The position numbers and the translations under genes were made by a program. Positions 10,072 to 58,495 of a DNA stretch of 59,077 bases are shown in pieces. The DNA is from a virus. The notes below the pieces were generated by a model that was given only the letters and a program-made list of their open reading frames with translations, was not told the origin of the DNA and searched no databases. Every line of letters starts with the position of its first letter. The first letter of the stretch is position 1. The DNA lies in the IMG/VR virus record IMGVR_UViG_3300032236_001008, positions 1 through 59,077 of that record. One strand, given 5' to 3'.

Positions 10072-10590
10072 ATGAAAAGAATTATCCCGATCCTTTTATG
10101 GATCCTAGGTAGTATTGCAGTAATCCACTACACAAACCGATATACCCAAATTGAAGAAAACATTATGGCAATTGCAAAATCCACATTAGACTTCATCACC
10201 AAAGAGGAAGGCGCCCGCAACAAGGCATACAAGGACTCTAAGGGTCTGTGGACTATTGGAGTAGGTCACCTCATCAAAGCCGATGAGCAACACCTCATCA
10301 CCGCAACCCTAACAGACGAACAGGTAGAAGACCTCCTTAAAAGCGATTTAAAGTGGTGTAGCCAGGCCGTAGAGAGCTCGGTAAAGGTACCCCTTGCCCA
10401 GCACCAATTTGACGCTCTATACAGCCTATGCTTCAATATTGGAGGCACTAACTTTGCCAAGTCTACTGTTGTTAAAAAAATCAACGAAAATGATATGCAG
10501 GGCGCGGCAGATGCCATTTTGATGTGGAATAAGCCAGAAGTGCTAGTAAACCGCAGAAAACGCGAAAGAGCACTATTTTTAGGGGCGTAA
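10072..10590 (+). CDS. Endolysin, GH24 (T4-type) lysozyme with N-terminal membrane segment
   Basis: A 172-residue muramidase that hydrolyses peptidoglycan. The T4 lysozyme triad is present with exact spacing: E46, D55 and T61 in KEEGARNKAYKDSKG and LWTIGVGH. Residues 4-20 (IIPILLWILGSIAVIHY) form a membrane helix with little charge, suggesting a signal-anchor-release form secreted by the host Sec machinery and later freed. An internal ATG (M32) would give a soluble version without the anchor. A strong AAGGAG site precedes the first ATG. It follows the spanin genes and ends one promoter upstream of the next unit. Confidence 0.85.
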   Translation: MKRIIPILLWILGSIAVIHYTNRYTQIEENIMAIAKSTLDFITKEEGARNKAYKDSKGLWTIGVGHLIKADEQHLITATLTDEQVEDLLKSDLKWCSQAVESSVKVPLAQHQFDALYSLCFNIGGTNFAKSTVVKKINENDMQGAADAILMWNKPEVLVNRRKRERALFLGA

Positions 10591-10619
10591 AACCCCATTT
10601 TTGTGCATTAGTAGATATA
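10583..10619 (+). promoter_or_regulatory. Phage promoter motif driving the 10.66-17.66 kb unit
   Basis: GGGCG at 10583-10587, exactly 15 nt, then GTGCATTAGTA at 10603-10613; position 37 is an A at 10619, the predicted transcription start. Five other sites in the window share this layout. The motif begins inside the last codons of the endolysin gene. A 45-nt leader follows before the ATG at 10664, with AGGAAA as ribosome-binding site. Confidence 0.7.
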
Positions 10620-10663
10620 AGGACTGATCATCCTTTATTCACCCACAACCTATAGGAAACCAA

Positions 10664-12115
10664 ATGGACGGCTTTAAATCACTGCCAAAAATGCAATGCT
10701 TCAGAGAAGGCGGCTCTGTAAAATCTAAACCAATGGCAAAATGCGTTGGCGGCAAAATGAAAGAAGGCGGAAAAGCCGATATTGCCCAAGATAAAGCTAT
10801 CGTTAAAAAAGCATTTGCTATGCACGATAAGCAAGAGCACGGTGGCGAAAAGACAGATTTGTCCAAGCTCAAAAAAGGTGGCCGTTCTAAAAAGGCTGTT
10901 GGCTCTGTTAAAAAATTTAAAACAGGCGGAAGCGTAACTAACGTTTATGAAGCCAAAAAATCTTCTGGTGATAAAGACAATATCCGTAAGACCAAACAGA
11001 TCAAACCAGCTACTGCTGCTGCTCCTTCTAAAGCAGCCACCAAGCCCAATTTTAAAGGCAGTGATGTTGCAAAAGAAAAGAATAAACCGGCGGCCGAGAA
11101 GGACCTTATCAAAAAGGTAAAGCCAACTGGTAACAAGAAAGCTGCTGCTCCATCTGGCGCTGGTGGCCCAGACGCTTTCAAAAAAGGTGGCAAGGTAAAA
11201 AAGTATAACGAGGGCAAATTAGTTGCCCCCGCTGCTGCCGGTCCTGCAGCAAAAGCTCCATCTGCAGCAACAGGCCAAGGACAAATTAGTGATTACGAGC
11301 GTAATCGTATGTCCAACATCAGCAAATTAGATCCAGCCCAACAAGCCGAGTTTGCTAAACAGCAAGCTGAAGCTACTGCTAAATACGGCAAGAAAAAAGG
11401 CGGTAAGATTAAGAAGTTTGCTGACGGTGGTTTGACTGCTGAGGAAAAAGATTGGTTGGGTGGCGCTGACGCCACTGACCCATTTATCCAAGCTCGCATG
11501 CGCGCAGCCCTTGGTCCTAAAAAAGCTGCCCCAGCACCACAGGGTTCATACATCTCTTCTGATGTAGATAACCGTGACGTTGGTCAAACTGGTGGTTCTA
11601 TTGATGACGAAAGCAAATGGGGCAACGTAAGCCCAGCTGCCGCAGCATTTAATAAGAACATCCCTGGCGCAGGTCCTGTAGCTGCTGCTCCTGTTCGTAC
11701 AGCCCCAGCTCCTGCAATGCCAGCTGGTCCAAGCGCTGATGATCGTCTACGTGCTAAGTATGGTCGCCCTGTTCAAGCTCCTAACGTTGAGCAAGACTCT
11801 GGTGTAGCATACCCACAAGGTCGTGGAAATGTTGACGCTTTACGTAGCGCAGTTCTGCCTTCCTTTGGTGGCTCTATGCCTTCTGCTTTCCCAGCACAAA
11901 ATGTAGCTCCACGTCCTGCACAAACTATTCCTAGTGCTAACGTAAGCATGCCTTCTGCATTCCCCGCAGCTAAAGTAGTTCCACGTCCAGCACCGGTTAT
12001 CCCAAGTGCAAACCTTGGTGCTCCAACAAGTTTTGACTCAGCACTATCACGTGTTAAGCGTCGTCCTGTAGTAGCACAAAAACGTGGTGGTAAAGCTGGT
12101 AAGAAAGGCTGCTAA
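10664..12115 (+). CDS. Lys/Gly/Ala-rich low-complexity virion protein
   Basis: A 483-residue, strongly basic protein in its first half, with repeated GG-turn motifs: [49 protein letters not shown]. The second half is Ala/Pro-rich with two repeats of the type [13 protein letters not shown]. The C-terminus is [11 protein letters not shown]. The basic part could bind DNA inside the capsid, but no enzymatic motif is visible. Its start ([11 protein letters not shown]) resembles that of the small protein at 30480 (MNDFKKLPKMK). Confidence 0.65.
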
Positions 12116-17667: not shown

Positions 17668-17704
17668 GGGCGAAAAACACATTTTCTTTGCATTAGTATA
17701 TGTA
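17668..17704 (+). promoter_or_regulatory. Phage promoter motif driving the internal virion protein unit
   Basis: GGGCG at 17668-17672, 15 nt, TTGCATTAGTA at 17688-17698, A at position 37 (17704). A 27-nt leader with TAGGAT as ribosome-binding site leads to the ATG at 17732. Spacing matches the other five sites exactly. Confidence 0.7.
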
Positions 17705-17731: not shown

Positions 17732-18193
17732 ATGACCCAAATGGTCGACAGCCATCAGCAAAAACTAAGCACAGACCAGATCGTTCAGATTGCGTCTGAA
17801 AACACTCGCGCCCCCTATCCATTCAAAAAAGTGTATATGCTGTTCGTTGCCGAAATGGGCATGCCAAATACTAAACTATATAAAATAGGCAATACTTTGT
17901 TTATTATCCACCCTTCTGACAATGATCCAACATACGGCATCTTCCGTGCGCTAAACGCCGACACCGCTAGAAACTTTGTTGAGAATGGTAAAGAGTTTGT
18001 TGACCGTGCAGTATCTGATGGTTTTAAAGCATTAAAAACCCAGTTTTCAGATCCAAGTATATTACAAATATTTAATATCATTGGGCGTGAAGAACAGGAA
18101 CTACAAAACCCAAATTTGGGTTACGCTGTAGGACGTGCCAAAAATGGCGACTATAGCGTTTCATTGATGCTCGGTGAAAGAAGGGGTCAATAA
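17732..18193 (+). CDS. Virion-operon protein of unknown function (153 aa)
   Basis: A 153-residue soluble protein of mixed helix and strand (FKKVYMLFVAEMGMPNTKLY, NADTARNFVENGKEFVD). It resembles small acyltransferase-like or chaperone proteins placed before podoviral ejection proteins, but I see no decisive motif. It is the first gene of the unit and overlaps the next start by one base. Confidence 0.5.
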   Translation: MTQMVDSHQQKLSTDQIVQIASENTRAPYPFKKVYMLFVAEMGMPNTKLYKIGNTLFIIHPSDNDPTYGIFRALNADTARNFVENGKEFVDRAVSDGFKALKTQFSDPSILQIFNIIGREEQELQNPNLGYAVGRAKNGDYSVSLMLGERRGQ

Positions 18194-30044: not shown

Positions 30045-30078
30045 TATATATACTAATGCAAAAAAGGGACTTTGTAAA
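30045..30078 (-). promoter_or_regulatory. Sigma70-like promoter for the nuclease/SSB/RNR unit
   Basis: On the minus strand TTTACA (30078-30073), 17 nt, then TAGTAT (30055-30050), with the phage element TTGCATTAGTA at 30061-30051. The GGGCG half of the phage motif is missing here; pos. 37 is still an A (30045). A 27-nt leader leads to the ATG at 30018. The -35 box lies inside the terminator at 30061-30088. Confidence 0.6.
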
Positions 30079-31731: not shown

Positions 31732-31768
31732 TATATCTACTAATGCAAAAAACCGGCTGAATCCGCCC
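31732..31768 (-). promoter_or_regulatory. Phage promoter motif on the minus strand
   Basis: On the minus strand GGGCG starts at 31768, followed by 15 nt and TTGCATTAGTA at 31748-31738, with A at position 37 (31732). This is the only full copy of the motif on the minus strand. It begins directly after the stop codon of the gene at 31769. Confidence 0.68.
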
Positions 31769-33153: not shown

Positions 33154-33322
33154 GTCTCATCTTTCTAAGTTCTTCTTCCATAGTTTGTAACTCCTCGAAG
33201 CTGTCACAAACCCAGATTCCCAATAAATTTTCGTAGCGGCTAGTGTCGATATCTTCCACACCAGTAAGCGTTTCCATAACATAATTGCCCTTGTATCTAT
33301 GTTCAACAATAAAATGACTCAT
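33128..33322 (-). CDS. Small protein of unknown function (64 aa)
   Basis: A 64-residue protein (MSHFIVEHRYKGNYVMETL, then ENLLGIWVCDSFEELQTMEE), mixed strand and helix. It overlaps the DUF3310 gene by 26 bases and the gene upstream by four. No family is recognised. Confidence 0.48.
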   Translation of the reverse strand: MSHFIVEHRYKGNYVMETLTGVEDIDTSRYENLLGIWVCDSFEELQTMEEELRKMRHARSSQQA

Positions 33323-33615
33323 AGTTTTAGCTCCTGTTTAATGAACTCAACACCTTTTTCAAAATGATAGCGCCAATACTTTTCGGTCACATGGATATCA
33401 TTATAACTCTGTCCGTTGAGAAACGCCAGTAAAACTTCTTGGGGTTTTGGTGGCATGCGATATTCTATAAGATACCGAATGTCAAGCATGTCTTCTGGAT
33501 CCCATGGAAACCAGCCCTCAATCAGTTGTGTAGATGTCCCCTCCACATCATCTTGCTCTAACGGATCTGGATCCTCATCCGATAGTCTTGGAGTAGTTGC
33601 TTTTATTTTTTTCAT
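33319..33615 (-). CDS. Small protein with possible helix-turn-helix (98 aa)
   Basis: An acidic N-terminus (SDEDPDPLEQDDVEGTSTQ) is followed by helices; residues 65-95 (PQEVLLAFLNGQSYNDIHV, TEKYWRYHFEKGVEFIK) look like a sigma-region-4 or HTH-type arrangement, weakly. It follows the ketosynthase gene with an ATGA overlap, so it may belong to the same functional group. Confidence 0.48.
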   Translation of the reverse strand: MKKIKATTPRLSDEDPDPLEQDDVEGTSTQLIEGWFPWDPEDMLDIRYLIEYRMPPKPQEVLLAFLNGQSYNDIHVTEKYWRYHFEKGVEFIKQELKL

Positions 33616-40892: not shown

Positions 40893-40928
40893 ATGCATAT
40901 ACTAATGCAAAAATGGTGGTTTTGTCAT
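40892..40928 (-). promoter_or_regulatory. TTGCATTAGTA promoter of the primase unit
   Basis: On the minus strand TTGCATTAGTA at 40910-40900 followed by TATGCATATG. The GGGCG half is absent and AAATG stands in its place. Predicted start around 40894-40892, at or next to the primase start codon. Confidence 0.55.
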
Positions 40929-41373: not shown

Positions 41374-41694
41374 TTACTCCTTTATCTTTGAATAACTGTC
41401 AACTACCCAACTAGACTTGTCTTCCCATGAGTCCTGTGTGCCATAATCACCCCTACTCATACGCATACGATCACGCTCTCTTTGTGGGGGTTCAATTGCC
41501 AGCCAGGCAGAGAACGCATCTTTATATTCCTGCCAATCGGGATTTGCTTCGTAAAATGGATGGTTAAATCCAGCCAAATCCACAGTAGATAGCACATCTG
41601 CCTGTCTAATCCACTTTTTTGCTCTTTTAACTATGCCCATCTTATTCCTTGCGGTTATATAGCGGTCATATGCTTTTTTCTGTTCTTCAGTCAT
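41374..41694 (-). CDS. Protein of unknown function (106 aa)
   Basis: A helical charged protein (EEQKKAYDRYITARNKMG, FYEANPDWQEYKDAFSAWL). It overlaps the end of the sigma-factor gene by 8 bases, so the two are co-expressed. No DNA-binding motif is evident; a sigma-associated factor is only a guess. Confidence 0.5.
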   Translation of the reverse strand: MTEEQKKAYDRYITARNKMGIVKRAKKWIRQADVLSTVDLAGFNHPFYEANPDWQEYKDAFSAWLAIEPPQRERDRMRMSRGDYGTQDSWEDKSSWVVDSYSKIKE

Positions 41695-42259
41695 CGTTGC
41701 CTTCCTCCAAAAATTTCTCTTGTTTTAAATTGCTAAGTGATATCGGTTCTTTGCCGATATGTCCTTGTAATTGGCTTATCTTTGCTTCAGATATGCCCAT
41801 GATGGTGGCTAACTCTGACACTTTGGGTTCTCGCCCAAGTATTTGGGACAGATTACGCTTATTGTAGTTTAGCTTTTTAATCTGTTCCATGATGTTGATT
41901 GGTAAACGAATGATGTTTGCGGTATTGTCTAAATCCCTACGCACCCCTTTCTCGATGAACGACTTTGCGTATGTGGCAAATCTTGCGTTATTCGTAGGCT
42001 TCCATCTTTTGGCTGCCATAAACAATGCCTCATTACCCATCGCAAGGATATCCTCGACAGGCACTTTACTGTGATGCCAAGCAGTCATCTTACGCACGAC
42101 ATAAACCACAAAGCGTAAGTTATGGGTGATGAGTTTGTCTAACGCATCGTCATCACCCTTTTGTATCTGCTTGGCTAACTGATGTTCTTCCTCTATGGGT
42201 AAAGGTTCAACTCCATAGAGGGATTGTAAGTAATCGCTTAATAAATCATTTTCTTTCAC
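41687..42259 (-). CDS. Sigma70-family RNA polymerase sigma factor without region 4
   Basis: GTG at 42259 with AGGAAA 7 bases upstream gives 190 residues. Region 1.2 (DLLSDYLQSLYGVEPLPIEE, QLAKQIQKGDDDALDKLI), region 2 (HNLRFVVYVVRKM, DILAMGNEALFMAAKRW, NARFATYAKSFIEKGVR, IRLPINI) and region 3 (REPKVSELATIMGISEAKIS) are clear. The protein then ends, so the -35-binding region 4 is missing. It may direct host RNA polymerase to the phage TGCATTAGTA promoters. TTG at 42274 is a weaker alternative start. Confidence 0.83.
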   Translation of the reverse strand: MKENDLLSDYLQSLYGVEPLPIEEEHQLAKQIQKGDDDALDKLITHNLRFVVYVVRKMTAWHHSKVPVEDILAMGNEALFMAAKRWKPTNNARFATYAKSFIEKGVRRDLDNTANIIRLPINIMEQIKKLNYNKRNLSQILGREPKVSELATIMGISEAKISQLQGHIGKEPISLSNLKQEKFLEEGNDD

Positions 42260-42410
42260 CCGCGTTTCCTTCAAATATTAACTGCAACAACTGTGGGAAA
42301 ACACATAATAGACCCCCAACAATCATAGCAATCAAGCCAAAAGTGATACCGCCCCCTGTTTCTATTGCACAAAAAGCGATAACAATAAATACGATTCCTA
42401 ACATTTTCAT
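42246..42410 (-). CDS. Small two-helix membrane protein (54 aa)
   Basis: A 54-codon ORF with two hydrophobic helices (MLGIVFIVIAFCAIE and FGLIAMIVGGLLCVFPQLLQ). ATGA overlap upstream and 14-base overlap with the sigma gene. Function unknown. Confidence 0.55.
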   Translation of the reverse strand: MKMLGIVFIVIAFCAIETGGGITFGLIAMIVGGLLCVFPQLLQLIFEGNAGERK

Positions 42411-42586: not shown

Positions 42587-42744
42587 TTTTTAATTATACC
42601 ATAAAAGGTCAATTTGCCGAGTAAAATCAAAATGGGATAAGTCCTTTAAGGCGGAAAAAATTTTTTTATGCGTTCCCCCACCCTGTTTAAACTTACTGTG
42701 CATAGATACATATGTGTTTAAACGAGGTCGTAGGGTTAAAAAAA
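42587..42744 (-). promoter_or_regulatory. Intergenic region before the sigma-factor unit
   Basis: 158 bases without a gene, AT-rich, with two GTTTAAAC copies (42685, 42716) 31 bases apart and an A/T tract (42655-42668). It holds the likely promoter of the sigma-factor unit, but no clear -10/-35 pair is visible. Confidence 0.4.
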
Positions 42745-46674: not shown

Positions 46675-46676
46675 GT

Positions 46677-47009: not shown

Positions 47010-47012
47010 TGT

Positions 47013-47183: not shown

Positions 47184-47185
47184 GT

Positions 47186-47374
47186 TTAAACCTCCATCAC
47201 TCTAACTCGATCACCCTCGATCACTACCTTTGCCTTACCCTCGCCAATTAGTTTAAAACCTAACTGTTGAACAATAATTGCCATCTTGTAGTGTTCCCCT
47301 TTGTGCCTGTAAAAAACTGCTAGGACTGTGGCTATCGTAGCCCATACCACTAAAAACAATTCACTCGATTCCAT
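47186..47374 (-). CDS. Small membrane protein (62 aa)
   Basis: One N-terminal membrane helix (LFLVVWATIATVLAVFY) and a cytoplasmic basic part (GFKLIGEGKAKVVIEGDRV). The stop is nested in GTTTAAAC. Function unknown. Confidence 0.52.
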   Translation of the reverse strand: MESSELFLVVWATIATVLAVFYRHKGEHYKMAIIVQQLGFKLIGEGKAKVVIEGDRVRVMEV

Positions 47375-47567
47375 AATTTTCCTCGTAGGTTAGATATGGT
47401 TTAAACACCTTGCACTTATCACCAAATACATAAAAGAGGGGGTTGGATTCTTTCACCAATTCCCGCTTTTCTTTGGCGGTCTGTGCTTGGGTCATGCGAT
47501 ATTGCAAAGACTGTTTAAACTCTTGCTCAATCTTGTTCACTCGCATTTTTAGACTGTATGTTCCCAT
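47361..47567 (-). CDS. Small protein of unknown function (68 aa)
   Basis: The ATG at 47567 lies six bases after the MoxR stop; a start at 47615 would overlap that gene by 43 bases. The protein is a charged helix (KMRVNKIEQEFKQSLQYRM, AKEKRELVKESNPLFY). Two GTTTAAAC copies lie inside the coding region. Confidence 0.5.
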   Translation of the reverse strand: MGTYSLKMRVNKIEQEFKQSLQYRMTQAQTAKEKRELVKESNPLFYVFGDKCKVFKPYLTYEENYGIE

Positions 47568-47572
47568 TACTT

Positions 47573-48649: not shown

Positions 48650-48675
48650 GTGTTGCCTTTCTTTGGTCGATTGTT

Positions 48676-48774
48676 TTACTGCTGAAAACTTGGATTATAT
48701 AAATCAGGGGCAAAACAAAATACTAGGAATAACCCCAATAATAAAATGGTGCATAAAATATCGTCTTTACTCAT
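48676..48774 (-). CDS. Very small membrane protein (32 aa)
   Basis: A 32-codon ORF with one hydrophobic helix (ILCTILLLGLFLVFCFAPDL). Its ATG overlaps the upstream stop in ATGAGTAA. Short, but the overlap pattern is repeated at 49089-49096, which supports it. Confidence 0.45.
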   Translation of the reverse strand: MSKDDILCTILLLGLFLVFCFAPDLYNPSFQQ

Positions 48775-48952
48775 GGTGTTTAAACTCCCTTATCCAATCA
48801 ATGTAAACTTTATCAAGATCAAGCCATTGTGCCATTCGTTTTCTGTTGGGTTTATCAATGGGGTAAATCAATAGAATCTCATTACCTACTCGTTTTAAGT
48901 AGTAATAAAATTCGGGCTTGTCGGGCTTGCGATATAACTTAATCACTTGCAT
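48767..48952 (-). CDS. Small protein of unknown function (61 aa)
   Basis: MQVIKLYRKPDKPEFYYYLK and RVGNEILLIYPIDKP suggest a small beta sheet; it ends REFKHHE, where GTTTAAAC is read through in frame as part of EFKH. The start follows a further GTTTAAAC copy. Confidence 0.5.
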   Translation of the reverse strand: MQVIKLYRKPDKPEFYYYLKRVGNEILLIYPIDKPNRKRMAQWLDLDKVYIDWIREFKHHE

Positions 48953-48955
48953 TGT

Positions 48956-49096
48956 TTAAACACCCTCTAAATATTTAATGTTGGTGATTGTGGTGCTATG
49001 CGTATCAGGAAAGCGGATAGTAGCCCACTCCCCTGATATGCTCACGATCTCAACAAGATCAAGCCCGCACCACATGGCTAGATCGCCCCTACTCAT
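48956..49096 (-). CDS. Small protein of unknown function (46 aa)
   Basis: The start at 49096 (MSRGDLAMWCGLDLVEIVSI) is chosen because it overlaps the upstream stop in ATGAGTAG. The stop is nested in GTTTAAAC. It resembles the small barrel protein at 43305 in size and pattern. Confidence 0.5.
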   Translation of the reverse strand: MSRGDLAMWCGLDLVEIVSISGEWATIRFPDTHSTTITNIKYLEGV

Positions 49097-49244
49097 GGTT
49101 TTCACCCAATACAAACCCGAGGGTAAAGCAAGCCAACACAAGCCCAACAACTGCCCACAAAGGGGTTTGTTCTATAACTGCCTGAATACATAAAACGGCT
49201 AATGTGATGATAATAGATAAAATGCCTACGAATAAATTGTTCAT
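49089..49244 (-). CDS. Small two-helix membrane protein (51 aa)
   Basis: A 51-codon ORF with two hydrophobic segments (LFVGILSIIITLAVLCIQAV and LWAVVGLVLACFTLGFVLG) and an end in ENHE. Its start follows GTTTAAACAAC; its stop overlaps the next ATG. Confidence 0.55.
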   Translation of the reverse strand: MNNLFVGILSIIITLAVLCIQAVIEQTPLWAVVGLVLACFTLGFVLGENHE

Positions 49245-49249
49245 GTTGT

Positions 49250-49492
49250 TTAAACACTCCCTAAAAGATTGTCAAAATATGTTTGTGGTTGTTCGGTTGC
49301 CTTTGCACCATCTAGCCATTTATTGATATGGCGGGAGGTTGTCATACTCCATTTTTTAGCGGTGCGGTTAAATGAATAAGTGCCTTTATCAAAACTTGCG
49401 ACAGGTGTTGCATAGCTAAACAATACAATGTGTTTAGGGGTTTCTAATAGGGTCATATTAGAGGCGATAGGTTTTACTGATAAGTTTGTCAT
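49250..49492 (-). CDS. Small protein of unknown function (80 aa)
   Basis: The start at 49492 follows AAGGA. The protein (MTNLSVKPIASNMTLLETPK, then SFNRTAKKWSMTTSRHINKW) is short and basic. The stop is nested in GTTTAAAC. Family unknown. Confidence 0.52.
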   Translation of the reverse strand: MTNLSVKPIASNMTLLETPKHIVLFSYATPVASFDKGTYSFNRTAKKWSMTTSRHINKWLDGAKATEQPQTYFDNLLGSV

Positions 49493-49514
49493 AATGTTTT
49501 TTCCTTGTTTAAAC

Positions 49515-49536
49515 AAGGGGGCGGGATTGCCCCCTT
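49515..49536 (-). terminator. GC hairpin after the 67-aa gene
   Basis: On the minus strand AAGGGGGC, a 6-nt loop and GCCCCCTT are followed by GTTTAAAC. A terminator-like or mRNA-end hairpin of 8 bp; the U run is short. Confidence 0.5.
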
Positions 49537-49540
49537 ATGG

Positions 49541-49744
49541 TTAGATTGTTGGTTTGCCTAGCATCTGTGCCAATTCATTGTAAACAGATTCTCTAGTGCC
49601 TTTCAAGCCCAATTCCTTTTTGATTAGGCTATACATGGTCATGCCCCGAGATACTTTTAAGCCCTTAATTTCAAGCCCTAAGCCCCGCAAAATGGTCATG
49701 TAGCGGAATTGGTTTATCTGTGTTGGGTTGGTGATCATTGTCAT
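49541..49744 (-). CDS. Small protein of unknown function (67 aa)
   Basis: The start at 49744 (MTMITNPTQINQFRYMTILR) follows GTTTAAAC directly. The C-terminal part (SRGMTMYSLIKKELGLKGT) is helical, maybe HTH-like. Unknown family. Confidence 0.52.
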   Translation of the reverse strand: MTMITNPTQINQFRYMTILRGLGLEIKGLKVSRGMTMYSLIKKELGLKGTRESVYNELAQMLGKPTI

Positions 49745-49746
49745 GT

Positions 49747-50103
49747 TTAAACACTCCATTCGTTGATTGGGTATTGATCGGGATTGGCGAGGGTTAGCCC
49801 CTCAATGGCGGGTATGTTAGTGCCGATATGGTTATCATAAAACGAACCCCTCGGGGATTGATACACAATGGCATCACGATACACAATGCCCTTACTATCA
49901 CCTAGCACAAATCGCCCTGATAGTTTGCCTTTGCTTGCTTGGGTGTCGCTAGATGTTGCACCCGATCTAAAGTGCATCTTTGCATTGGCTTTGTCGCTAT
50001 CAAAATGCCAATATGGTTTGTAGGCAAACATCGCAACATTGGCGGGCTTGCCATCGCTACACAATACAGTCTTAGCGGTGATTCTATATACATATGTTCC
50101 CAT
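49747..50103 (-). CDS. Protein of unknown function (118 aa)
   Basis: A 118-residue beta-rich protein (MGTYVYRITAKTVLCSDGKP, YRDAIVYQSPRGSFYDNHIG). It is the first gene after the control region at 50104 and ends with its stop inside GTTTAAAC. Family unknown. Confidence 0.55.
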   Translation of the reverse strand: MGTYVYRITAKTVLCSDGKPANVAMFAYKPYWHFDSDKANAKMHFRSGATSSDTQASKGKLSGRFVLGDSKGIVYRDAIVYQSPRGSFYDNHIGTNIPAIEGLTLANPDQYPINEWSV

Positions 50104-50396
50104 TGTTCTATTTCCTTTGTAGGTTAGTGATCAATTAAGTGGAATATCCACACTCAAATTAGATCAAATTCGGGTGGGTGTGTAAAGCGATTCTTTATAT
50201 CTATTAGTAATAAAACAACGGGCTTTTATACTAAGGGTTTACCCTCGAAAATCGAGATCGTGTATGGTCTAACCCTAACCCACACACTCGCCACGAAAGA
50301 GGCTAAAAAGGGGCTTAAAATGGCTCTAAATTGATTGGGGTATTATGGCGGGTTGGTGGATTTTGGCGGGGTGGTTGTTTAAACATATGAGAGGGG
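50104..50396 (-). promoter_or_regulatory. Control region in front of the 43-50 kb unit
   Basis: Non-coding. It holds the 13-bp palindrome GTGGAATATCCAC (50139-50151), TATCTATTAGTAAT, and at 50235-50260 a 26-bp element that recurs exactly at 51428-51453, including the inverted repeat CTCGAAAATCGAG. GTTTAAAC lies at 50377. Likely promoter/operator or 5' leader region of the minus-strand unit. Exact -10/-35 not resolved. Confidence 0.6.
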
Positions 50397-50432
50397 CAAA
50401 AAAAAAATCGGGGCATAAAGCCCCGATCTGTT
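50397..50432 (-). terminator. Rho-independent terminator
   Basis: On the minus strand ATCGGGGC, loop TTTAT, GCCCCGAT and a run of nine T. It follows the small gene at 50446 and so separates the SprT unit from the next one. Confidence 0.8.
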
Positions 50433-50445
50433 TAACCCTTGCGGG

Positions 50446-50625
50446 CTAGATTCGCACTTGTGCGATTATGGTCATACCCTCTAGGTATTGAGCAAACTCT
50501 TTAGCACTCTTTAGAGTTTTAAACTCATAAACTTTATGGGCGGTTTTGATTGTGTATTTATATTTAGGTTTCGCCCTTGCCTTGAGGGTTTTAGCACTTG
50601 GGAACATATCGGTATGTTTTAACAT
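50446..50625 (-). CDS. Small basic protein (59 aa)
   Basis: A 59-codon ORF (MLKHTDMFPSAKTLKARAKP ... EFAQYLEGMTIIAQVRI), basic at the N-terminus, with a terminator right after its stop. Between the SprT-like gene and the terminator. Function unknown. Confidence 0.55.
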   Translation of the reverse strand: MLKHTDMFPSAKTLKARAKPKYKYTIKTAHKVYEFKTLKSAKEFAQYLEGMTIIAQVRI

Positions 50626-50654
50626 GGTTTATTTTCCTTTGGTAGTTTAAACAT

Positions 50655-50671
50655 GGGGGCGGTTTGCCCCC
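50655..50671 (-). other. GC hairpin after the SprT-like gene
   Basis: GGGGGC, 5-nt loop and GCCCCC, followed on the minus strand by ATGTTTAAAC. As at 49515, a GC hairpin sits right before a GTTTAAAC. There is no U run, so mRNA processing or stability is as likely as termination. Confidence 0.42.
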
Positions 50672-50684
50672 TTGCGGGGTTGGC

Positions 50685-51311
50685 TTATTCCTCGCCCTCA
50701 TCTTTGCCCTCGAGGGGTAGAAAATCGTGGGTCATATCGCCATGACCTAGCGGGCATCGTGGTGTTGCAAGTTTTAGCCACTTGCTAGATATCCGCATGG
50801 TGTAGCCACAAGCATAGCAATCACACTTGTGTAAGCGGGTGGATTGCTTTCTCATGTTTACCTGTAATGATTCATGGGGATATTCACCCGCCTCGCTAAC
50901 CCATTGGGCTAGTAATACTTTGAGGGATTCACTAGCATTGGTGCTAGTGGGTTTGCCCTCTAATCCAACAGCATAGGCACAATTCTCAAATACCTTGCCA
51001 TGACCCTCGTTTAAACCTACTGTCGCATGGCATAGCTCATGGATAAGGGTGTCTAATACTTCGATACTATTGGATTCGTTAGGCACGATCACGATTTCAA
51101 AATTGCGGTGATTGCCTTGTGAATCGGTATTGCTCATACATTGACCCGCTACGAATCGTTTTTGACCCTTGCGTTTAAATGCCCCTTTAGTGCTAAATGA
51201 ACATGAGAATTTAATATCCTCGGGGATTGTGTAGCCCTTAGATTCAAACATGGGCTTAATGAATTGCTCAGTCATATGGTTGAGCCATGATTCTCTATTA
51301 AGTAATTGCAT
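50685..51311 (-). CDS. SprT-like zinc metalloprotein
   Basis: A 208-residue protein. H91-E-L-C-H95 (DTLIHELCHATVGL) and H104 (EGHGKVFENCAYAVGL) form the SprT zinc site; C163, C165, C168, C186 and H190 make a C-terminal zinc ribbon. SprT/Spartan proteases act on DNA-protein crosslinks. First gene of its unit, behind the control region at 51312. Confidence 0.8.
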   Translation of the reverse strand: MQLLNRESWLNHMTEQFIKPMFESKGYTIPEDIKFSCSFSTKGAFKRKGQKRFVAGQCMSNTDSQGNHRNFEIVIVPNESNSIEVLDTLIHELCHATVGLNEGHGKVFENCAYAVGLEGKPTSTNASESLKVLLAQWVSEAGEYPHESLQVNMRKQSTRLHKCDCYACGYTMRISSKWLKLATPRCPLGHGDMTHDFLPLEGKDEGEE

Positions 51312-51520
51312 GGTGTTCTATTCCTATCTATTAGTGGTTAGTAATCATGTGGAAAATCCACACCTAATACTCTCATGGTTTAAACAACATTAGGATAGGG
51401 ATATACCCTTAAGGGTTTACCCTATTAGGGTTTACCCTCGAAAATCGAGATCGCAACCCCTCCGATACCTATACCCCATCGGGGGCGAAAACGGCTAAAA
51501 AGCCCCTTAAAACGATTCCT
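51312..51520 (-). promoter_or_regulatory. Control region of the SprT unit, related to that at 50104
   Basis: Holds TGTGGAAAATCCACA (51348-51362), GTTTAAAC (51378), GGGTTTACCC twice, and at 51428-51453 the exact 26-bp element shared with 50235-50260. GGCTAAAAAG and CTTAAAA also recur in the same order at both places. A duplicated promoter/operator or leader. Confidence 0.62.
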
Positions 51521-51628
51521 ATTGGATTCTCATAATGTGGAATGGCTAGGGGTGCGGGCTTGCGTAATAACCCTATAAACTAAAGGGATAAACCCTCACA
51601 CCCTCGCACCCGCATAGCCCTATCACCT

Positions 51629-51825
51629 ATGTTGCACCGCACCATATAACCACATTGGCATTATGGTTATGTTGCACCGCACCATATTGCCCGCCCTGTT
51701 TAAACACCCACCCATATAACCATATTGGCATTGTGGTTATTATGTTGCACCGCACAATGGCGTATCGGATATGTTGCACCGCACAAAGACCTTACTGCCA
51801 TTGTGGTTATGTTGCACCGCACCAT
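51629..51825 (+). repeat. Five-copy ATGTTGCACCGCAC array
   Basis: Copies start at 51629, 51669, 51742, 51771 and 51809, all on the plus strand, and continue as CATAT, CAATGG or AAAG. Between them are inverted ATAACCA ... TGGTTAT arms around an ATTGGCATT core (three times). No gene. The array resembles replication iterons or regulator-binding sites. A GTTTAAAC copy lies at 51698. Confidence 0.75.
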
Positions 51826-51982
51826 GCGTTTCACATTATGAGATTAGATTCCACAATGCGGAATAGGGGGCTTAACTTGTGAGGCGATACCCCTTTATGC
51901 AGACCCCCACCCCCCTCGGCCCGGGGGCCCCACAAAGCTCAAGTTTTTATAAAACCGCATTTTTAAAATTTTTTTGTAAAAA

Positions 51983-52368
51983 TTGTCAGGGTTGTCAGGG
52001 TTTGCTTTTTAAATTGTCAGGGTTTAATTTTTGCATTTTGTAAAATTTTTTTGTAAATTTTTTAAATAAATCAATAACTTACAAGCGCAATTAACCTACA
52101 CCCCTGATTCCGCCGTGAAAGTGTTTGATCTTATTAGATAAAGTGTTAAAATTGTCAGGGTAGTATGGGTAGTACCCCTCTATATCACTTTATTTTAAAA
52201 TTTTAAAAAATAAAAAATAAATATTATGGAGTAAGTACGTTTAGACCCTGACAACCCATACTACCCTGACAATTGGTTGCTAAGTTGTTGATTCATATAG
52301 GGCCAAATAAGAATTATTCTCAATAAAGTGCTAAAACCAAACCCTGACAACCCATACTACCCTGACAA
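51983..52368 (+). repeat. Control module B: inverted and direct TTGTCAGGGT repeats
   Basis: TTGTCAGGG copies at 51983 (double), 52014 and 52152 (full 19-mer TTGTCAGGGTAGTATGGGT), inverted copies at 52245-52272 and 52341-52368, with an A/T-rich core at 52180-52244. Order and spacing, including TAAGTTGTTGATT, copy module A (40948-41166) in the opposite direction. Directly upstream of the promoter at 52381. Confidence 0.8.
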
Positions 52369-52380
52369 TTTTGGGTCATG

Positions 52381-52417
52381 GGGCGTAAAACCCCCAGTTT
52401 TTGCATTAGTAAGTCTA
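52381..52417 (+). promoter_or_regulatory. Phage promoter motif, start codon at position 37
   Basis: GGGCG at 52381-52385, 15 nt, TTGCATTAGTA at 52401-52411, and the A of the ATG at 52417 is position 37. No ribosome-binding site is present, so the mRNA is probably leaderless. Confidence 0.72.
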
Positions 52418-52722
52418 TGAATGATTACGCATATCAAATCAAAGGAGCGTTGGAAAACGCTCAGGGCCAATTCATTGGTCTGCGAGTATTGGTTTGTGAC
52501 ATCAATAACTTTGAAATCGTGGATGTACCGGTGGAAGTCTTGGATAAAGAGACCACCAAGTATTTGCAATACCGCCTCAAAGTTACAGACGTGATAGATA
52601 TCCAGCGCTTACCTATCCCTGTTCAGAACAGAATACGCGCTCCGTTAGGGAGATGGCTCGACTACTGGGTCGTAAAAAACTTTTATGGCAATTCTATCGA
52701 ACGAAAAAGTACTAACTCTTGA
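52417..52722 (+). CDS. Protein of unknown function (101 aa), first gene of the terL unit
   Basis: A 101-residue protein (MNDYAYQIKGALENAQGQFI, VDVPVEVLDKETTKYLQYRL) with mixed fold. Its start coincides with position 37 of the promoter. It overlaps the intein-like gene by 38 bases. Family unknown; not an obvious small terminase. Confidence 0.55.
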   Translation: MNDYAYQIKGALENAQGQFIGLRVLVCDINNFEIVDVPVEVLDKETTKYLQYRLKVTDVIDIQRLPIPVQNRIRAPLGRWLDYWVVKNFYGNSIERKSTNS

Positions 52723-53629
52723 TTATTGGAAACCTGCATCTAAACTGCAAGTAGGCGATTACGTATTTGACCAGTCCGGCACCCCGGTCCAAATTAAACT
52801 GGTTCAAGAGTATCGCGCCCAATCTTGCTATGAGGTAACGTTTAATGATCACCTGCGCATATCAGGAGACGATAAGCTGGGTTTTCTTATGGAAACTCCA
52901 AAGTATCGCAAAAGAACATACGAATATAAACGTGTCCAGCCATTTAGGCGCCCGTTAAAACCATTTACTGTATCCCAGTTAGACTTACTGGAACTTAGGG
53001 ACCACAGAAAAAGGTTAATATTTTCCATACCCACTGCTAAACCATTAGCACTCCCCCACCAAGATTTACCGATACCACCATTTATCTTTGGTCTTTGGTT
53101 TTTTAATAGAAAACCATTAAACCAATCTGACTTTATTGTTGATAAGTTTAAAGATTATGGGTATAAGATTGACAAGAATGGCAATATAACGCCATCTATT
53201 ACCCAGCAGCTGGCACCCAATATCCCAACAACCATTCCGTCAAACTATTTACTAGCTTCCCCGGAGCAACGTACGGAATTATTGTCTGGCATACTGCATT
53301 CTAAGTCACGCCAATATCATGCCAAAGACGATAGATTTAGATTTTCTTCTAGCCACTATGGTACAATACTACAGATACAAGGATTAGTTGAATCATTAGG
53401 ACACAGATCAAGATTATCGTTTGATGAAACGTACAAGTATTACACCATTTCGTTTAAATCACGTACCAAATTAATGGAAGAGCAAAAGTCTCCGCCAATT
53501 AAGGTACACCAAGCTCGCCGATACGTAACCAAGATTGATTCCATACCAAATCAATCTTGCATACACATTGAAACTAATGGCAAAGACAACACGATTCTTG
53601 TAGGAGAAGGATTTATAGCATGCCGTTAA
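52685..53629 (+). CDS. Free-standing intein-derived (Hint / homing endonuclease-like) protein
   Basis: A 314-residue protein. The start (SNEKVLTLDYWKPASKLQVG, then DYVFDQSGTPVQIKLVQEY) follows intein block A, and CYEVTFNDHLRISGDDKLGF recalls block B. The middle has degenerate LAGLIDADG-like parts (FIFGLWFFNR, ELLSGILHSKS). The end YVTKIDSIPNQSCIHIETNG with TILVGEGFIACR is like block F and G but lacks the final His-Asn. The catalytic first Cys/Ser is absent at residue 1 of a splice site, so self-splicing is unlikely. It ends 10 bases inside the terL gene. Confidence 0.65.
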   Translation: MAILSNEKVLTLDYWKPASKLQVGDYVFDQSGTPVQIKLVQEYRAQSCYEVTFNDHLRISGDDKLGFLMETPKYRKRTYEYKRVQPFRRPLKPFTVSQLDLLELRDHRKRLIFSIPTAKPLALPHQDLPIPPFIFGLWFFNRKPLNQSDFIVDKFKDYGYKIDKNGNITPSITQQLAPNIPTTIPSNYLLASPEQRTELLSGILHSKSRQYHAKDDRFRFSSSHYGTILQIQGLVESLGHRSRLSFDETYKYYTISFKSRTKLMEEQKSPPIKVHQARRYVTKIDSIPNQSCIHIETNGKDNTILVGEGFIACR

Positions 53630-55065
53630 CAGATAAACAACAAGCAACATTAGAAAAATTTGCTGCTGTCAACAAACATTGGCCTAAACAACAACTAGAA
53701 GCCGCAATATGGCAAGTAAAATGGGCGCTACAAGCCCTACCACACCAACAGGAGCCAGAAGATGGCGAATATGATACCTTTCTTATGCTTGCCGGTCGTG
53801 GATCGGGTAAGACGCATACTGCCAGCCATTGGATTGGCATTCGCGCTTGGCGTTATGACAATACCCGCTGGCTCGTCACTGCCCCCACTTCCAACGACAT
53901 ACGAGCAACTTGTTTTGAAGGAGACTCTGGACTCCTTAACATCATCCCAAAGTCCCTTATTAGGGATTACAACAAATCCTTATTTGAAATCACCCTTACA
54001 AACGGCTCCCTCATCCAAGGAATCCCAGGCTCAGAGCCAGAACGTTACCGCGGTAAACAATACCACGGCGCATGGTTCGACGAGCTGTGCGCTTTTGACT
54101 ACATCGATGATGCGTATGATGGTGTTCAGTTCACGTTGCGTCTTAGAGACCCTAGAATCCCAAGAGTCCAACAGATTATTACAACAACGCCAAAGCCAAA
54201 AGAGCTCATCGTCGACCTTAACGAAGGAAAAATCGGCGGGGACGTCTATGTGGCCAATGCGTCCTCCTACGACAACCGTGCCAACCTCTCAGAAACGTTT
54301 TTCAAACAATTAGAAACGTACGATGGCACCGACATTGGTAGGCAGGAGATCTATGGCGAGATTCTTGACCCAGAGCAAGCTGGTATTATCAAGCGTAAGC
54401 AGTTTCGTTTATGGCCGGCCAATAAGCCAACGCCAAATCTAGAATACATTATTGCCTCGTACGACCCCGCTACCTCAGAAAAAACCATGAACGACCCAAC
54501 GGCATGCACAATATGGGGCGTGTTTGAACAAACCGACGCTGGTACAGCCATTATCCTTTTGGATGCATGGGACGCGCATTTGTCATACCCAGAGCTACGC
54601 CGCAAAGTTATTGAAGATTTTAAAGAAGTTGTGTACGGCGCCGATAATGACTTTGGTAAAGGCCGTAAAGCAGACCTAATTCTCATGGAAGATAAGTCTG
54701 CTGGTATTTCTCTCATACAAGAGCTGCAAGGTGCTGGTGTACCGGTGCGTGGGTACAACCCAGGGCGCGCAGATAAGGTCCAGCGTTTAAACATTGTGGC
54801 ACCATTAGTTGCTAAAGGTAAAGTATGGATACCAGAAGATAGCAAAATAAAAGGTGAGTTTGCCGATTGGGCAAAAAGGTTCCTAAGACAAGTATGTTCG
54901 TTTCCAGAAGCCGGAGGGCATGATGATTATGTAGACTCTTTGTCACAAGCGCTACGTGTTTTGCGTGATTCTGGATGGATACAGCTTGATTATCTGCCAG
55001 CAAGGGATTATAGTTATGCAGATGATGATTATGGCAAGAAGTTTACCAATCCGTACGCCCAGTAG
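53620..55065 (+). CDS. terL: Terminase large subunit
   Basis: A 481-residue packaging motor. Walker A is LAGRGSGKT (K64), Walker B is HGAWFDELCAFD (D154, E155), and the coupling motif is ITTTPKP. The C-terminal RNase H-like nuclease begins ASYDPATSEKTMND and ends in GHDDYVDSLSQAL. It translocates DNA into the prohead and cuts it. The start overlaps the intein-like gene by 10 bases. The stop TAG is joined to the next promoter. Confidence 0.93.
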   Translation: MPLTDKQQATLEKFAAVNKHWPKQQLEAAIWQVKWALQALPHQQEPEDGEYDTFLMLAGRGSGKTHTASHWIGIRAWRYDNTRWLVTAPTSNDIRATCFEGDSGLLNIIPKSLIRDYNKSLFEITLTNGSLIQGIPGSEPERYRGKQYHGAWFDELCAFDYIDDAYDGVQFTLRLRDPRIPRVQQIITTTPKPKELIVDLNEGKIGGDVYVANASSYDNRANLSETFFKQLETYDGTDIGRQEIYGEILDPEQAGIIKRKQFRLWPANKPTPNLEYIIASYDPATSEKTMNDPTACTIWGVFEQTDAGTAIILLDAWDAHLSYPELRRKVIEDFKEVVYGADNDFGKGRKADLILMEDKSAGISLIQELQGAGVPVRGYNPGRADKVQRLNIVAPLVAKGKVWIPEDSKIKGEFADWAKRFLRQVCSFPEAGGHDDYVDSLSQALRVLRDSGWIQLDYLPARDYSYADDDYGKKFTNPYAQ

Positions 55066-55101
55066 GGCGGAATGTCTTATATTTGTGCATTAGTAGTATT
55101 A
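55065..55101 (+). promoter_or_regulatory. Phage promoter motif, start codon at position 37
   Basis: GGGCG begins at the last base of the terL stop (55065); 15 nt then GTGCATTAGTA at 55085-55095; ATG at 55101 is position 37. No Shine-Dalgarno sequence. Confidence 0.72.
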
Positions 55102-55367
55102 TGGACTTATTAAAAACTCCCCATCAAATGCTGTTAGAAGAGGCAGGCGCAACCCCTCAATCTGACGGCCTGCTAAAAACTCCTAAACAAATGCTGTTTG
55201 AGGAGTCTGGTATGTTACCGCACTATGCAGCCGGCCATACTGTAAAACAACTTAGCCCAAAAGAAATGCAAGCGGCGCTAGTTGCGCATGAATTAAGACA
55301 AAAATATGCCCAAGGGGGCGAGGTTCACCCAACCCTAGCAGCGGCTTTCAACAAAATTTTCAGTTAA
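55101..55367 (+). CDS. Small protein with internal repeat (88 aa)
   Basis: The start at 55101 is the ATG at the promoter. Two repeats, LLKTPHQMLLEEAG (residues 3-16) and LLKTPKQMLFEESG (24-37), are followed by YAAGHTVKQLSPKEMQAALV and a YAQGGEVHPTLAAA end, with a GG-x-V motif. Perhaps a capsid-scaffold or decoration factor; unknown. Confidence 0.6.
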   Translation: MDLLKTPHQMLLEEAGATPQSDGLLKTPKQMLFEESGMLPHYAAGHTVKQLSPKEMQAALVAHELRQKYAQGGEVHPTLAAAFNKIFS

Positions 55368-55371
55368 AAAT

Positions 55372-58239
55372 ATGGCACAACCACAAATCCCAATGCAAAT
55401 GGGGCAAAACCTGCCCGGCCTTGACACAGAAGAAAATCTGGCACAAGCTCAAGAGCAAGATGCAGAGATGGATATGTACGAGGAAGCTCTTGGATTAGAT
55501 CCAGGGGAAGCCGAGGGTGAAGTCATTGAATTGGAAGATGGTTCGGTTGTAGTTAATTTCCAACCAACCGAAGGCCCACGTAAAAACCCAGAGTTTTACG
55601 CCAACTTGGCCGAAGAGCTTGATGAAGATGTTCTTCAAGCATTAGCTAACGAATATTTAGACTTTATTGACGTTGACAAAGAGTCTCGTAAACAAAGGGA
55701 CAAGCAATATGAAGAAGGATTACGCCGGACAGGACTTGGCAAGGATGCACCTGGCGGTGCAACGTTCGATGGTGCTTCTAAAGTTGTACACCCAGTTATG
55801 GCTGAGGCGTGTGTTGACTTTGCTGCGTCAGCCGCAAAGGAATTACTCCCGCCTGATGGTTTGGTTAAATCAAGCATTAAAGGCGAAGCCGACAGAATAA
55901 AAGAAGAAACTGCAGAACGTAAAGTAAACTTTATGAACTGGCAGTTAACTGAACAAATTCCCGAGTATCGTGATGAGATGGAGCAATTGCTTACTCAATT
56001 ACCACTCGGTGGTTCACAATTTCTTAAATGGCGTTTTGATGAAGAGCAAGCGCGCCCAATGTGCGAGTGGGTGCCGATTGATAACATCTTCTTGCCATAC
56101 TCATCTACAAACTTTTACACATCGCCACGTGTAACTGAACAACAAGACATTACAGAAGATACATTTTTACAGCGTATTGAAGCCGGTATATACCGTGACA
56201 TTAATAGCACGTACTCTTCTGACTCTCCACTGACAGATCAAACTCGTAGCCAAGAAGCTAACGACAAAATCGAAGGTAAACAAGAGCCAACCAAAAATAT
56301 TGACGGACTACGTCGTATTTATGAGATTACTTGTTTCATGCGCCTTGATGATGATCCAGAAACAGGTGGACGTCGTGCCCCATACATTATGACAATTGAC
56401 GAGACAACCGGCGATGTGTTGTCTTTGTATAGAAACTGGGAAGCAAACGATGAGAAACTCACGAAACTGGATTGGTACGTCGAATACAAATTCATTCCTT
56501 GGCGTGGCGCTTACGCTATTGGCCTCCCCCATCTTATTGGCGGCCTGTCTGCTGCTCTCACTGGTTCTCTTCGGGCTCTCCTTGACGCTGCTCATATCAA
56601 CAACAGCCAGACGATGCTTAAGCTCAAGGGTGGACGCATTGGTGGCCAGTCTGACAGAATAGAACCCACCCAGGTTATTGAAATTGAAGGCGCCCCTGGC
56701 GTCGATGATGTACGTAAGATTGCAATGGCCATGCCATTTAACCCGCCATCAAGCGTATTGTTTGATTTGTTGGGTTGGTTAACAGAAGCTGCTAAAGGTG
56801 TTGTAACTACATCTGAAGAAAAAATTGCTGACGCTAACAGTCAGATGCCAGTTGGCACAACCCAAGCTCTAATTGAGCAAGGTGCTAAAGTGTTCTCAAG
56901 CATCCATGCTCGTATGCACCGCAGTCAAGCCAAATCATTGGCAATTGTATCTCGCATTAACCATTGGTTCCTTCCAGACATGGATAACCAGTCTGGCGAA
57001 GAGATTGAAGTACGTGATTTTGCTAACAACAACGACGTACGCCCAGTTTCAGACCCTAATATTTTCTCTGAGACACAACGTTTGGCTCAGAACCAAGCTG
57101 TATTGCAAATGGCACAGGCCGCCAACGCAACAGCACCCAATATGTTTGACATGCGCGCAGTATATCGCCGTATGTTAGAGCAAATGAAAGTTCCTGGCAT
57201 TGAAGAAATTCTACCAAACCCAATGGGTGCTAAAGAATCTAACCCAGCGCTTGAAAACGTGTCCATGACTATGGGCAGACCGGCAGCTGCGTACCCAGAT
57301 CAAGACCACATTGCTCACATTAAGATCCATTTGCAGTATGCGATGGATCCAGCGTATGGTGGCAACCCAGTTATTGGCCCATCATTCTCCCCACATGCAT
57401 TAGAGCACTTAAAACAACATTTAACACTGCACTATTTGCAATCTATGCGTAACTATGTAGCGCATGCCGCCGGTGGTAAAGATACACTCGAGTTGCATCA
57501 AGAAAAACCGCTTGACCAAGACGCACAGCAAGCTCTTGCATTGGCTTCACAAATGGTTTCTCAGGATTCACAACAAACCATGCAGCCATTTGTACAACAA
57601 ATTCAACAATTGGCCCAAAAAGTACAACAAGCCCAACAAGCGCAACAACAAAATATTGCAGCGCAAGATCCAACTGCACAAGTTCTGCTTAAAACACAAA
57701 TGGCAGAGACACAACGCAAACAAGCTGAGTCTCAAGCACGTATGCAAATGGAACAATCTAAAACTGAGCAAGATTACCAGCTTAAAATTGCTGAACTTAA
57801 ACGTCAAGTGCTCGATTTACAAGCTAAATACGAAACACAGACAACTGTTGACAACCAAAGAAATGCTACACAGATTGCTTTGGCTGATATTAACAATTCT
57901 TCACGTGAACGTATTGCAGAAATTAACGCCAAAATGGCTTTAAATGCTGATCAGGTAAATATGCAGCACGAACAAGATATGTTGTCTCGTCAAGCCACTA
58001 TGGAAGCCGAACAAAGCATCCGTGACCATGGAATTGAGATTCAACAACAACAAATGCAACACGCATCACAAATGGTTCAACAACAGGCTGATAATGCAGC
58101 CCAGCAACAGCAATCTGCTTTAGAAGCTCAACAACAATCTGGTTTACAGCAGCAACAAGCTCAACAGCAAGCAGGTTTACAACAGCAACAAGCAGATTTA
58201 CAACCACCAACACCCCCAACAGGAGCAACAAATGGCTAA
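55372..58239 (+). CDS. Portal protein (P22 family) with long Gln-rich C-terminus
   Basis: A 955-residue portal, the dodecameric channel at the capsid vertex. Diagnostic parts are WVPIDNIFLPYSSTNFYTSP, YVEYKFIPWRGAYAIGLPHL, LRALLDAAHINNSQTML and PFNPPSSVLFDLLGWLTEAA, ending in IVSRINHWFLPD. The C-terminal 240 residues are Gln-rich coiled coil (QQIQQLAQKVQQAQQAQQQ and further), comparable with the P22 barrel but longer than in the 725-residue P22 protein. Directly after a small gene. Confidence 0.88.
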   Translation: MAQPQIPMQMGQNLPGLDTEENLAQAQEQDAEMDMYEEALGLDPGEAEGEVIELEDGSVVVNFQPTEGPRKNPEFYANLAEELDEDVLQALANEYLDFIDVDKESRKQRDKQYEEGLRRTGLGKDAPGGATFDGASKVVHPVMAEACVDFAASAAKELLPPDGLVKSSIKGEADRIKEETAERKVNFMNWQLTEQIPEYRDEMEQLLTQLPLGGSQFLKWRFDEEQARPMCEWVPIDNIFLPYSSTNFYTSPRVTEQQDITEDTFLQRIEAGIYRDINSTYSSDSPLTDQTRSQEANDKIEGKQEPTKNIDGLRRIYEITCFMRLDDDPETGGRRAPYIMTIDETTGDVLSLYRNWEANDEKLTKLDWYVEYKFIPWRGAYAIGLPHLIGGLSAALTGSLRALLDAAHINNSQTMLKLKGGRIGGQSDRIEPTQVIEIEGAPGVDDVRKIAMAMPFNPPSSVLFDLLGWLTEAAKGVVTTSEEKIADANSQMPVGTTQALIEQGAKVFSSIHARMHRSQAKSLAIVSRINHWFLPDMDNQSGEEIEVRDFANNNDVRPVSDPNIFSETQRLAQNQAVLQMAQAANATAPNMFDMRAVYRRMLEQMKVPGIEEILPNPMGAKESNPALENVSMTMGRPAAAYPDQDHIAHIKIHLQYAMDPAYGGNPVIGPSFSPHALEHLKQHLTLHYLQSMRNYVAHAAGGKDTLELHQEKPLDQDAQQALALASQMVSQDSQQTMQPFVQQIQQLAQKVQQAQQAQQQNIAAQDPTAQVLLKTQMAETQRKQAESQARMQMEQSKTEQDYQLKIAELKRQVLDLQAKYETQTTVDNQRNATQIALADINNSSRERIAEINAKMALNADQVNMQHEQDMLSRQATMEAEQSIRDHGIEIQQQQMQHASQMVQQQADNAAQQQQSALEAQQQSGLQQQQAQQQAGLQQQQADLQPPTPPTGATNG

Positions 58240-58450
58240 AAACCCACAAGACGGCGGCGAATTAGGCTTTCGTAAAACTTACAAAATGACTGGTACACCA
58301 GGAAACGCTGGCGGCCCAGGCGCTAAAGTAGATAATGGACCATCTGGTTCTTTGCGCGCTAACAATGCCGTAAAAGGCAAACCAGCACGTTCATCTAAAG
58401 TTGGCCCAGATAAAAATCTTAAAGATATTGGCGGCGGCAACTTTTATTAA
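58232..58450 (+). CDS. Small protein of unknown function (72 aa)
   Basis: A 72-residue basic, Gly-rich protein (MAKNPQDGGELGFRKTYKMT, GPGAKVDNGPSGSLRANNAV). Overlaps the portal gene by eight bases. Possibly virion-associated; no family is recognised. Confidence 0.55.
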   Translation: MAKNPQDGGELGFRKTYKMTGTPGNAGGPGAKVDNGPSGSLRANNAVKGKPARSSKVGPDKNLKDIGGGNFY

Positions 58451-58458
58451 TAGTTTTA

Positions 58459-58495
58459 GGGCGGAATTCTTCATAGTCTTGCATTAGTAAGATTA
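58459..58495 (+). promoter_or_regulatory. Phage promoter motif, start codon at position 37
   Basis: GGGCG at 58459-58463, 15 nt, TTGCATTAGTA at 58479-58489; A of the ATG at 58495 is position 37, without Shine-Dalgarno. Confidence 0.72.

Follow-up and report, generated by a model that had tools for sequence, protein, structure and literature searches.

Two promoter classes and a phage sigma factor without region 4 in an IMG/VR virus record and its relatives

Promoter sites and gene layout in the window

The window, by which we mean the whole stretch of DNA analysed here, covers 59,077 bases and corresponds to an IMG/VR virus record for which no completeness estimate is shown. The tail and virion genes, the terminase (53620-55065) and the portal (55372-58239) lie on the plus strand, and DNA polymerase, RNR, exonuclease, helicase and primase lie on the minus strand. 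The preliminary description had listed six sites with the pattern GGGCG-N15-KTGCATTAGTA and two minus-strand sites (30061 and 40910) with TTGCATTAGTA only. All six were recovered exactly, spacing included, as were both short sites, and position 37, counted from the first G of GGGCG, is A in all six full sites and in both short ones. The features of the window are collected in Table 1.

Table 1. Coordinates of the promoter sites and of the sigma-related genes in the window; late and middle are the names used for sites with and without GGGCG, and A37 is the A at position 37.
Feature	Position	Strand	Description
Late promoter	10583..10619	+	GGGCG and -10 element; A37 = 10619; ORF 10664-12115 downstream
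Late promoter	17668..17704	+	A37 = 17704; ORF 17732-18193 downstream
Late promoter	31732..31768	-	A37 = 31732; heads block of small genes that leads up to terminase small subunit (30104-30490)
Late promoter	52381..52417	+	A37 (52417) is A of ATG; likely leaderless ORF 52417-52722, 5' of terminase
Late promoter	55065..55101	+	A37 (55101) is A of ATG; likely leaderless ORF 55101-55367, 5' of portal
Late promoter	58459..58495	+	A37 (58495) is A of ATG; likely leaderless ORF 58495-58686
Middle promoter	30045..30061	-	-10 element only; 5' of exonuclease (28885-30018); hairpin T-tract extends into promoter
Middle promoter	40894..40910	-	-10 element only; 5' of primase
Sigma region-4-like protein, candidate late co-subunit	33319..33615	-	98 aa; 3' of helicase
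Phage sigma factor	41687..42274	-	195 aa; regions 1.2, 2, 3 and start of 3.2 linker; no region 4
Candidate host-type early promoter	42593..42620	-	TCGGCA-16-TATAAT with TG; TATGGTATAAT at 42593; 5' of sigma operon

The occurrence of the motif in the window was compared with that in 200 windows simulated by an order-3 Markov model: the exact full pattern was found 6 times in the window and 0 times in the simulated set, and the exact 10-mer was found 9 times against a simulated mean of 0.16 and maximum of 2. A search of the window allowing up to 3 mismatches gave 8 matches against 0.80 expected. The ninth exact 10-mer, which the preliminary description had missed, is located at 2455-2464 (-), antisense within a tail ORF and without A37, and looks like a chance occurrence. 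The preliminary description also did not recognise that sites with GGGCG (late) and sites with TTGCATTAGTA alone (middle) serve different functions, probably at different times of infection, that the sigma factor is without the part that reads a -35 element, and that the window encodes a region-4-like protein separately.

Several other features of the window were recorded. Five 37-nt copies around TATGTTGCACCGCACCAT (51609-51825) are found ahead of the late genes, in about 1 kb where no gene is evident; they are iteron-like and possibly mark an origin. Direct and inverted ACCCTGACAACCCATACTACCCTGACAATT repeats are present at 52245-52274 and 52341-52370, just 5' of the late promoter at 52381, and at 40942-41168, 5' of the primase. 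ORF 52685-53629, which precedes the complete terminase ORF 53620-55065, matches terminase large subunits in PHROGs over residues 7-250 (3e-10) and has no Pfam match; it is perhaps an intein-like domain. On the minus strand, 45490-48649 encodes a putative metallopeptidase/VWA protein (DUF2201) close to an AAA ATPase. A beta-ketoacyl synthase (369 aa) and an adjacent acyl-carrier-protein-like ORF (99 aa), possible fatty-acid auxiliary genes, lie at 33612-35017, between the helicase and the region-4-like gene.

Promoter classes and start site in relatives

The motif had been proposed to define a phage-specific promoter class, and it is conserved in relatives, with the exact full motif found in at least 118 IMG/VR stretches. 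In the set fetched by primase (80 loci, 97 distinct TGCATTAGTA sites), 33 of the 35 GGGCG elements present 5' in the examined stretch had the 15-nt spacing. Across 232 protein-fetched loci, the distance from GGGCG to the -10 part was exactly 15 nt in 215 of 217 occurrences, counted without deduplication.

The two classes were counted across these 232 loci, which were fetched by protein and not by motif and which contain 320 distinct anchored sites; the 117 loci that the full motif itself had retrieved, and in which GGGCG is present by construction, were excluded. Exact GGGCG was absent from all replication-gene sites (0/210), and gene by gene the counts were 0/61 for exonuclease, 0/57 for primase, 0/52 for the region-4-like gene, 0/20 for SSB, 0/16 for ACP, 0/4 for polA and 0/1 for ATPase. 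The same element was found at 31 of 33 sites of the terS block, at 19 of 20 portal sites and at all 16 sites of the MDLL gene. The MNDY gene, 5' of the terminase, is an exception to the split with weakened sites, having exact GGGCG at 12 of 40 and a version with one mismatch at 19 more (31/40 together). Counts for MKDF (28/28 with GGGCG), g10664 (20/20) and g17732 (4/4) come from motif-fetched loci or from the window only, and were left out of the class-split evidence. Promoter class tracks gene function and not strand, because the minus-strand terminase small-subunit block keeps GGGCG amid replication genes. Although lysis is a late function, the sites of the lysis (endolysin) gene are -10-only in six relatives (L093, L097, L100, L122, L144 and L190, all motif-fetched loci), which runs against the split. 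Position 32 was tried as a class marker and rejected: in the first 80 loci it was G at 27 of 33 late sites and T at 40 of 51 middle sites, a difference that faded considerably once more loci were included.

Across 348 loci and the window, 275 distinct GGGCG sites had T at position 36 in 268 cases and A at position 37 in 270, both positions being outside the search pattern used for this set. An ATG was placed at 37 in 61 of the 275 sites, compared with a single site at 35 and 8 sites at 39; elsewhere it was placed at 33 in 17, at 40 in 13 and at 47 in 19. When only protein-fetched loci were considered (140 sites), A37 was present in 136, and the ATG began at 37 in 17 sites and at 40 in a further 12. 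The ORFs with ATG at 37 mostly encode three conserved proteins (MKDF..., MxxYxYQI... and MDLLKTP...). Position 37 is thus likely to be the transcription start, and genes with their ATG there are likely to be leaderless. Three of the six full sites in the window have this arrangement (52417, 55101 and 58495), which would put the start positions 52378 and 55083 of the ORF list 5' of the proposed +1. At the primase site, +1 is probably 40894, and the start codon is therefore probably the ATG at 40892 instead of that at 40898. If +1 is position 37, GGGCG occupies -36 to -32. The register of the -10 hexamer is not settled between two options, ATTAGT at -12 to -7 with TG at -15/-14, and CATTAG with a 17-nt spacer from GGGCGN. 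In a set of 285 late sites drawn from 348 loci and the window, 89 have a hairpin with GGGCG as its left arm and a T-tract running towards the -10 element; terminator and promoter may overlap at about a third of late promoters.

The phage sigma factor and the region-4-like protein

The preliminary description had suggested that a phage factor may be required at these promoters. The window does encode a sigma factor, and the -10 letters shift genome-wide in step with its sequence in relatives. The sigma ORF (41687-42274) matches PHROG 351 (5.5e-28) and the Pfam families Sigma70_r3 (2.5e-8) and Sigma70_r2 (8.9e-6), above cut-off, with region 1.2 just short of cut-off (3.7e-4) and no Pfam match for region 4. 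The family profile aligned to residues 96-265 of a 368-aa SigA, ending at EPVSL of the linker after region 3. Judged by the lengths of its relatives, the absence of region 4 is a family trait and not a damaged gene, since 56 of 57 distinct proteins are 188-196 aa long (one 132-aa ORF was left out of the family alignment). The protein belongs to the sigma-70 family only as a member without region 4, like phiEco32 gp36 by its description. Together with the conservation of the motif, this supports the assignment of the motif as the promoter set of the phage-encoded sigma factor.

The -10 part had been called unlike the E. coli consensus. It is divergent, but it is TATAAT-like and not wholly unlike that consensus, and variants in relatives contain TATTAT, CATAAG and CATTAA. 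GGGCG and the spacing stay constant while the -10 letters vary as a set across the sites of a genome. In the contig L033/G005, each of the eight GGGCG sites found has TGTATTATTA, as do the exonuclease, primase and region-4-like gene sites; L038 and L018 have CGTATTAG, and L024, L053 and L071 have TGCATTAATA. Mixed variants within a locus were seen in L011, L064, L083 and L023. Residue 101 of the sigma factor, the T of a FATYAK stretch that aligns with FSTYAT of SigA, was paired with base 29 of the motif for 88 distinct sigma proteins with a motif, giving T-G 67, S-A 5, G-T 8, A-T 7 and A-A 1, with a few sites off the majority base within a locus (in L008, L159, L064, L348 and L349). On the sigma tree base 29 needs 3 changes and residue 101 needs 4, and the S/A pairing occurs at two separate places. 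The association is suggestive and not significant, because the tree holds only 1-2 independent pairs. A search of L080, which has S101, for a motif of the same type found none. The roughly five -10 dialects with matching sigma proteins are a ready data set for how a sigma residue sets -10 specificity.

Upstream of the sigma genes a different, host-type box was found. Of 91 distinct 500-nt stretches 5' of sigma genes, 49 contain an extended -10 or TATAAT box, often TGTGGTATAAT immediately before the gene, whereas the opposite strand has such a box in 14 of 91; the phage motif was present once in these stretches. A general sigma-70 scan of 41000-59077 gave 37 matches against 42.9 expected, no excess over chance, and the early class therefore relies on the comparison across the family.

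The 98-aa protein encoded at 33319-33615 (-) is the candidate for the missing sigma domain. Matches to Sigma70_r4_2 at E ≤ 1 were obtained for 26 of 59 family members (best 2.1e-4), and the protein of the window itself had no match to this family at that threshold. In its AF2 model, block means of pLDDT are 91-98 from residue 41 on, and the first helix of the HTH is missing or shortened. The top VIA rows for this model are sigma region-4 chains, with SigR region 4 at Z 8.3 (rmsd 2.0, 57 aligned) and SigE region 4 on -35 DNA at Z 7.8; Foldseek E-values were weak (all > 0.7), and a PDB profile search with the family gave mostly unrelated matches and one weak sigma (E 2.4). No match was found among INPHARED phages at E ≤ 1. 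In the recognition helix of the family E78, K79, W81, R82 and H84 are invariant, and GGGCG is likewise constant. On these likenesses the 98-aa protein would bind polymerase, and it probably reads GGGCG. Sites 5' of the corresponding gene in relatives are -10-only (52/52, protein-fetched loci). The window has no site directly 5' of this gene, so that its expression would come from the primase-operon promoter at 40910.

Of 22 contigs longer than 41 kb, many of them fragments, all have the motif, 20 encode the 98-aa protein and 18 the sigma factor. By portal, the nearest named phages are MW202545 and Caulobacter phage RW; sigma, region-4-like protein and motif were found in neither of the two whole records, although an empty search of this kind tells little when no positive control accompanies it. 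Among GTDB genomes, the 98-aa protein was found on one contig only (L358), which is phage-like, carries phage replication genes and a full site, and is binned in a betaproteobacterial MAG, a weak hint to the host.

Proposed mechanism, alternatives and known systems

The observed motif, its two classes, their fixed spacing, the anatomy of the sigma factor and the concerted drift of the -10 letters are best explained, and in our view probably so, by core RNA polymerase carrying the phage sigma factor, to which the region-4-like protein is added for late genes. Host sigma would drive the early genes, and the phage sigma factor would be made early from a host-type, TGTGGTATAAT-like extended -10 promoter. 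On host core RNA polymerase it would use the promoters described here. Since region 4 is missing from it, it would read the -10 region alone (TTGCATTAGTA, with the start at A37), and by itself it would transcribe the middle genes (the primase/helicase operon, exonuclease and SSB, and in relatives also the region-4-like gene). The 98-aa protein, a middle gene product (in the window, of a downstream gene of the primase operon), would then join the polymerase and read GGGCG at -36 to -32, switching on the late genes (terminase, portal and virion). We lean, somewhat more cautiously, towards the further reading that the phage sigma is a naturally divided factor, the break lying between regions 3.2 and 4, with the halves staged in time and several late promoters leaderless.

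The alternative that survives best, although we consider it unlikely, retains sigma-dependent promoters and has GGGCG read by another factor, either a host activator or another phage DNA-binding protein, with the 98-aa protein doing something else. It draws on the indirect nature of the link between the 98-aa protein and GGGCG and on the poor score of the window's member when taken alone. Against it, GGGCG sits where region 4 would be, 15 nt 5' of the -10 part with the near-invariance given above (215/217), and the region-4-like protein accompanies sigma and motif in the long contigs (20/22, 18/22 and 22/22, respectively). It is very improbable that GGGCG is instead an arm of an intrinsic terminator for the preceding operon and not a -35 element: a stem of at least 4 pairs that uses the GGGCG arm does occur at the 89 of 285 late sites noted above, compared with 11% of shuffled spacers, and the window sites 10583 and 52381 have one, but the remaining 196 of 285, including 4 of the 6 in the window, are stemless yet keep GGGCG and the spacing, and exonuclease sites with a different hairpin before the T-tract are without GGGCG. 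We give still less credence to ordinary host sigma-70 extended -10 promoters, for which the TG and the A/T-rich box would speak, since the -10 letters drift in concert per genome and track the phage sigma factor, and true host-type TGTGGTATAAT boxes occur separately 5' of the sigma gene. Promoters of a single-subunit phage RNA polymerase, as a compact and nearly invariant motif might suggest, can be practically dismissed, since no such polymerase was found among 20 window proteins scanned against PHROGs and the sites have -35/-10 geometry with A at +1 alongside a sigma gene.

If the reading with a phage sigma factor and an added region-4-like protein is true, the middle-to-late switch would work by restoring a missing sigma domain, a cleaner arrangement than the unrelated co-activator of T4, and a genetic switch would have been made by splitting a sigma factor in two. 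With two proteins and two promoter classes, the system is small enough for in vitro rebuilding, and it would allow early, middle and late genes to be sorted by promoter in a widespread uncultured phage family.

We found no description in the open-access literature of a system of this kind (split/two-subunit or region-4-less sigma, leaderless late promoters, freshwater phage sigma), and CATTAGTA as a text string gave nothing relevant in the titles and opening abstract lines of the matches listed. We read the combination of features, for which these searches gave no precedent in print, as a phage sigma that is both split and staged. Its closest counterparts differ from it in defined ways. The phiEco32 sigma gp36, as described in PMC8948821, is without region 4 and serves both the middle and the late genes through tAATGTAtA single-element promoters; the system proposed here is alike in placing a region-4-less phage sigma on host RNA polymerase, and unlike it in having both single-element and bipartite promoters where the middle and late promoters of phiEco32 share one single element. 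Phage 7-11 gp47 is described in the same source as using bipartite GTAAtg-16-aCTA promoters and as having its own region 4, whereas here a region-4-less sigma would serve bipartite promoters too. T4 gp33, in the account of PMC7892883, fills the place of region 4, is structurally unrelated to it and does not bind DNA by itself, and T4 late promoters are described there as a -10-like element. The pairing of a -10 specificity factor with a separate small late factor at the region-4 place would resemble gp55/gp33; unlike gp33, the small protein here resembles region 4, and unlike T4 late promoters, which have no -35 element in that account, the late sites here carry GGGCG at a fixed spacing. In Bacillus subtilis SigO-RsoA, sigma domains 2 and 4 are on two proteins that act together, according to PMC8103513. 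If the region-4 reading of the 98-aa protein is right, the division into region-2 and region-4 proteins would be like that of SigO-RsoA in form; unlike in that cellular pair, the region-2/3 half here has its own set of promoters, and the two halves seem to be staged.
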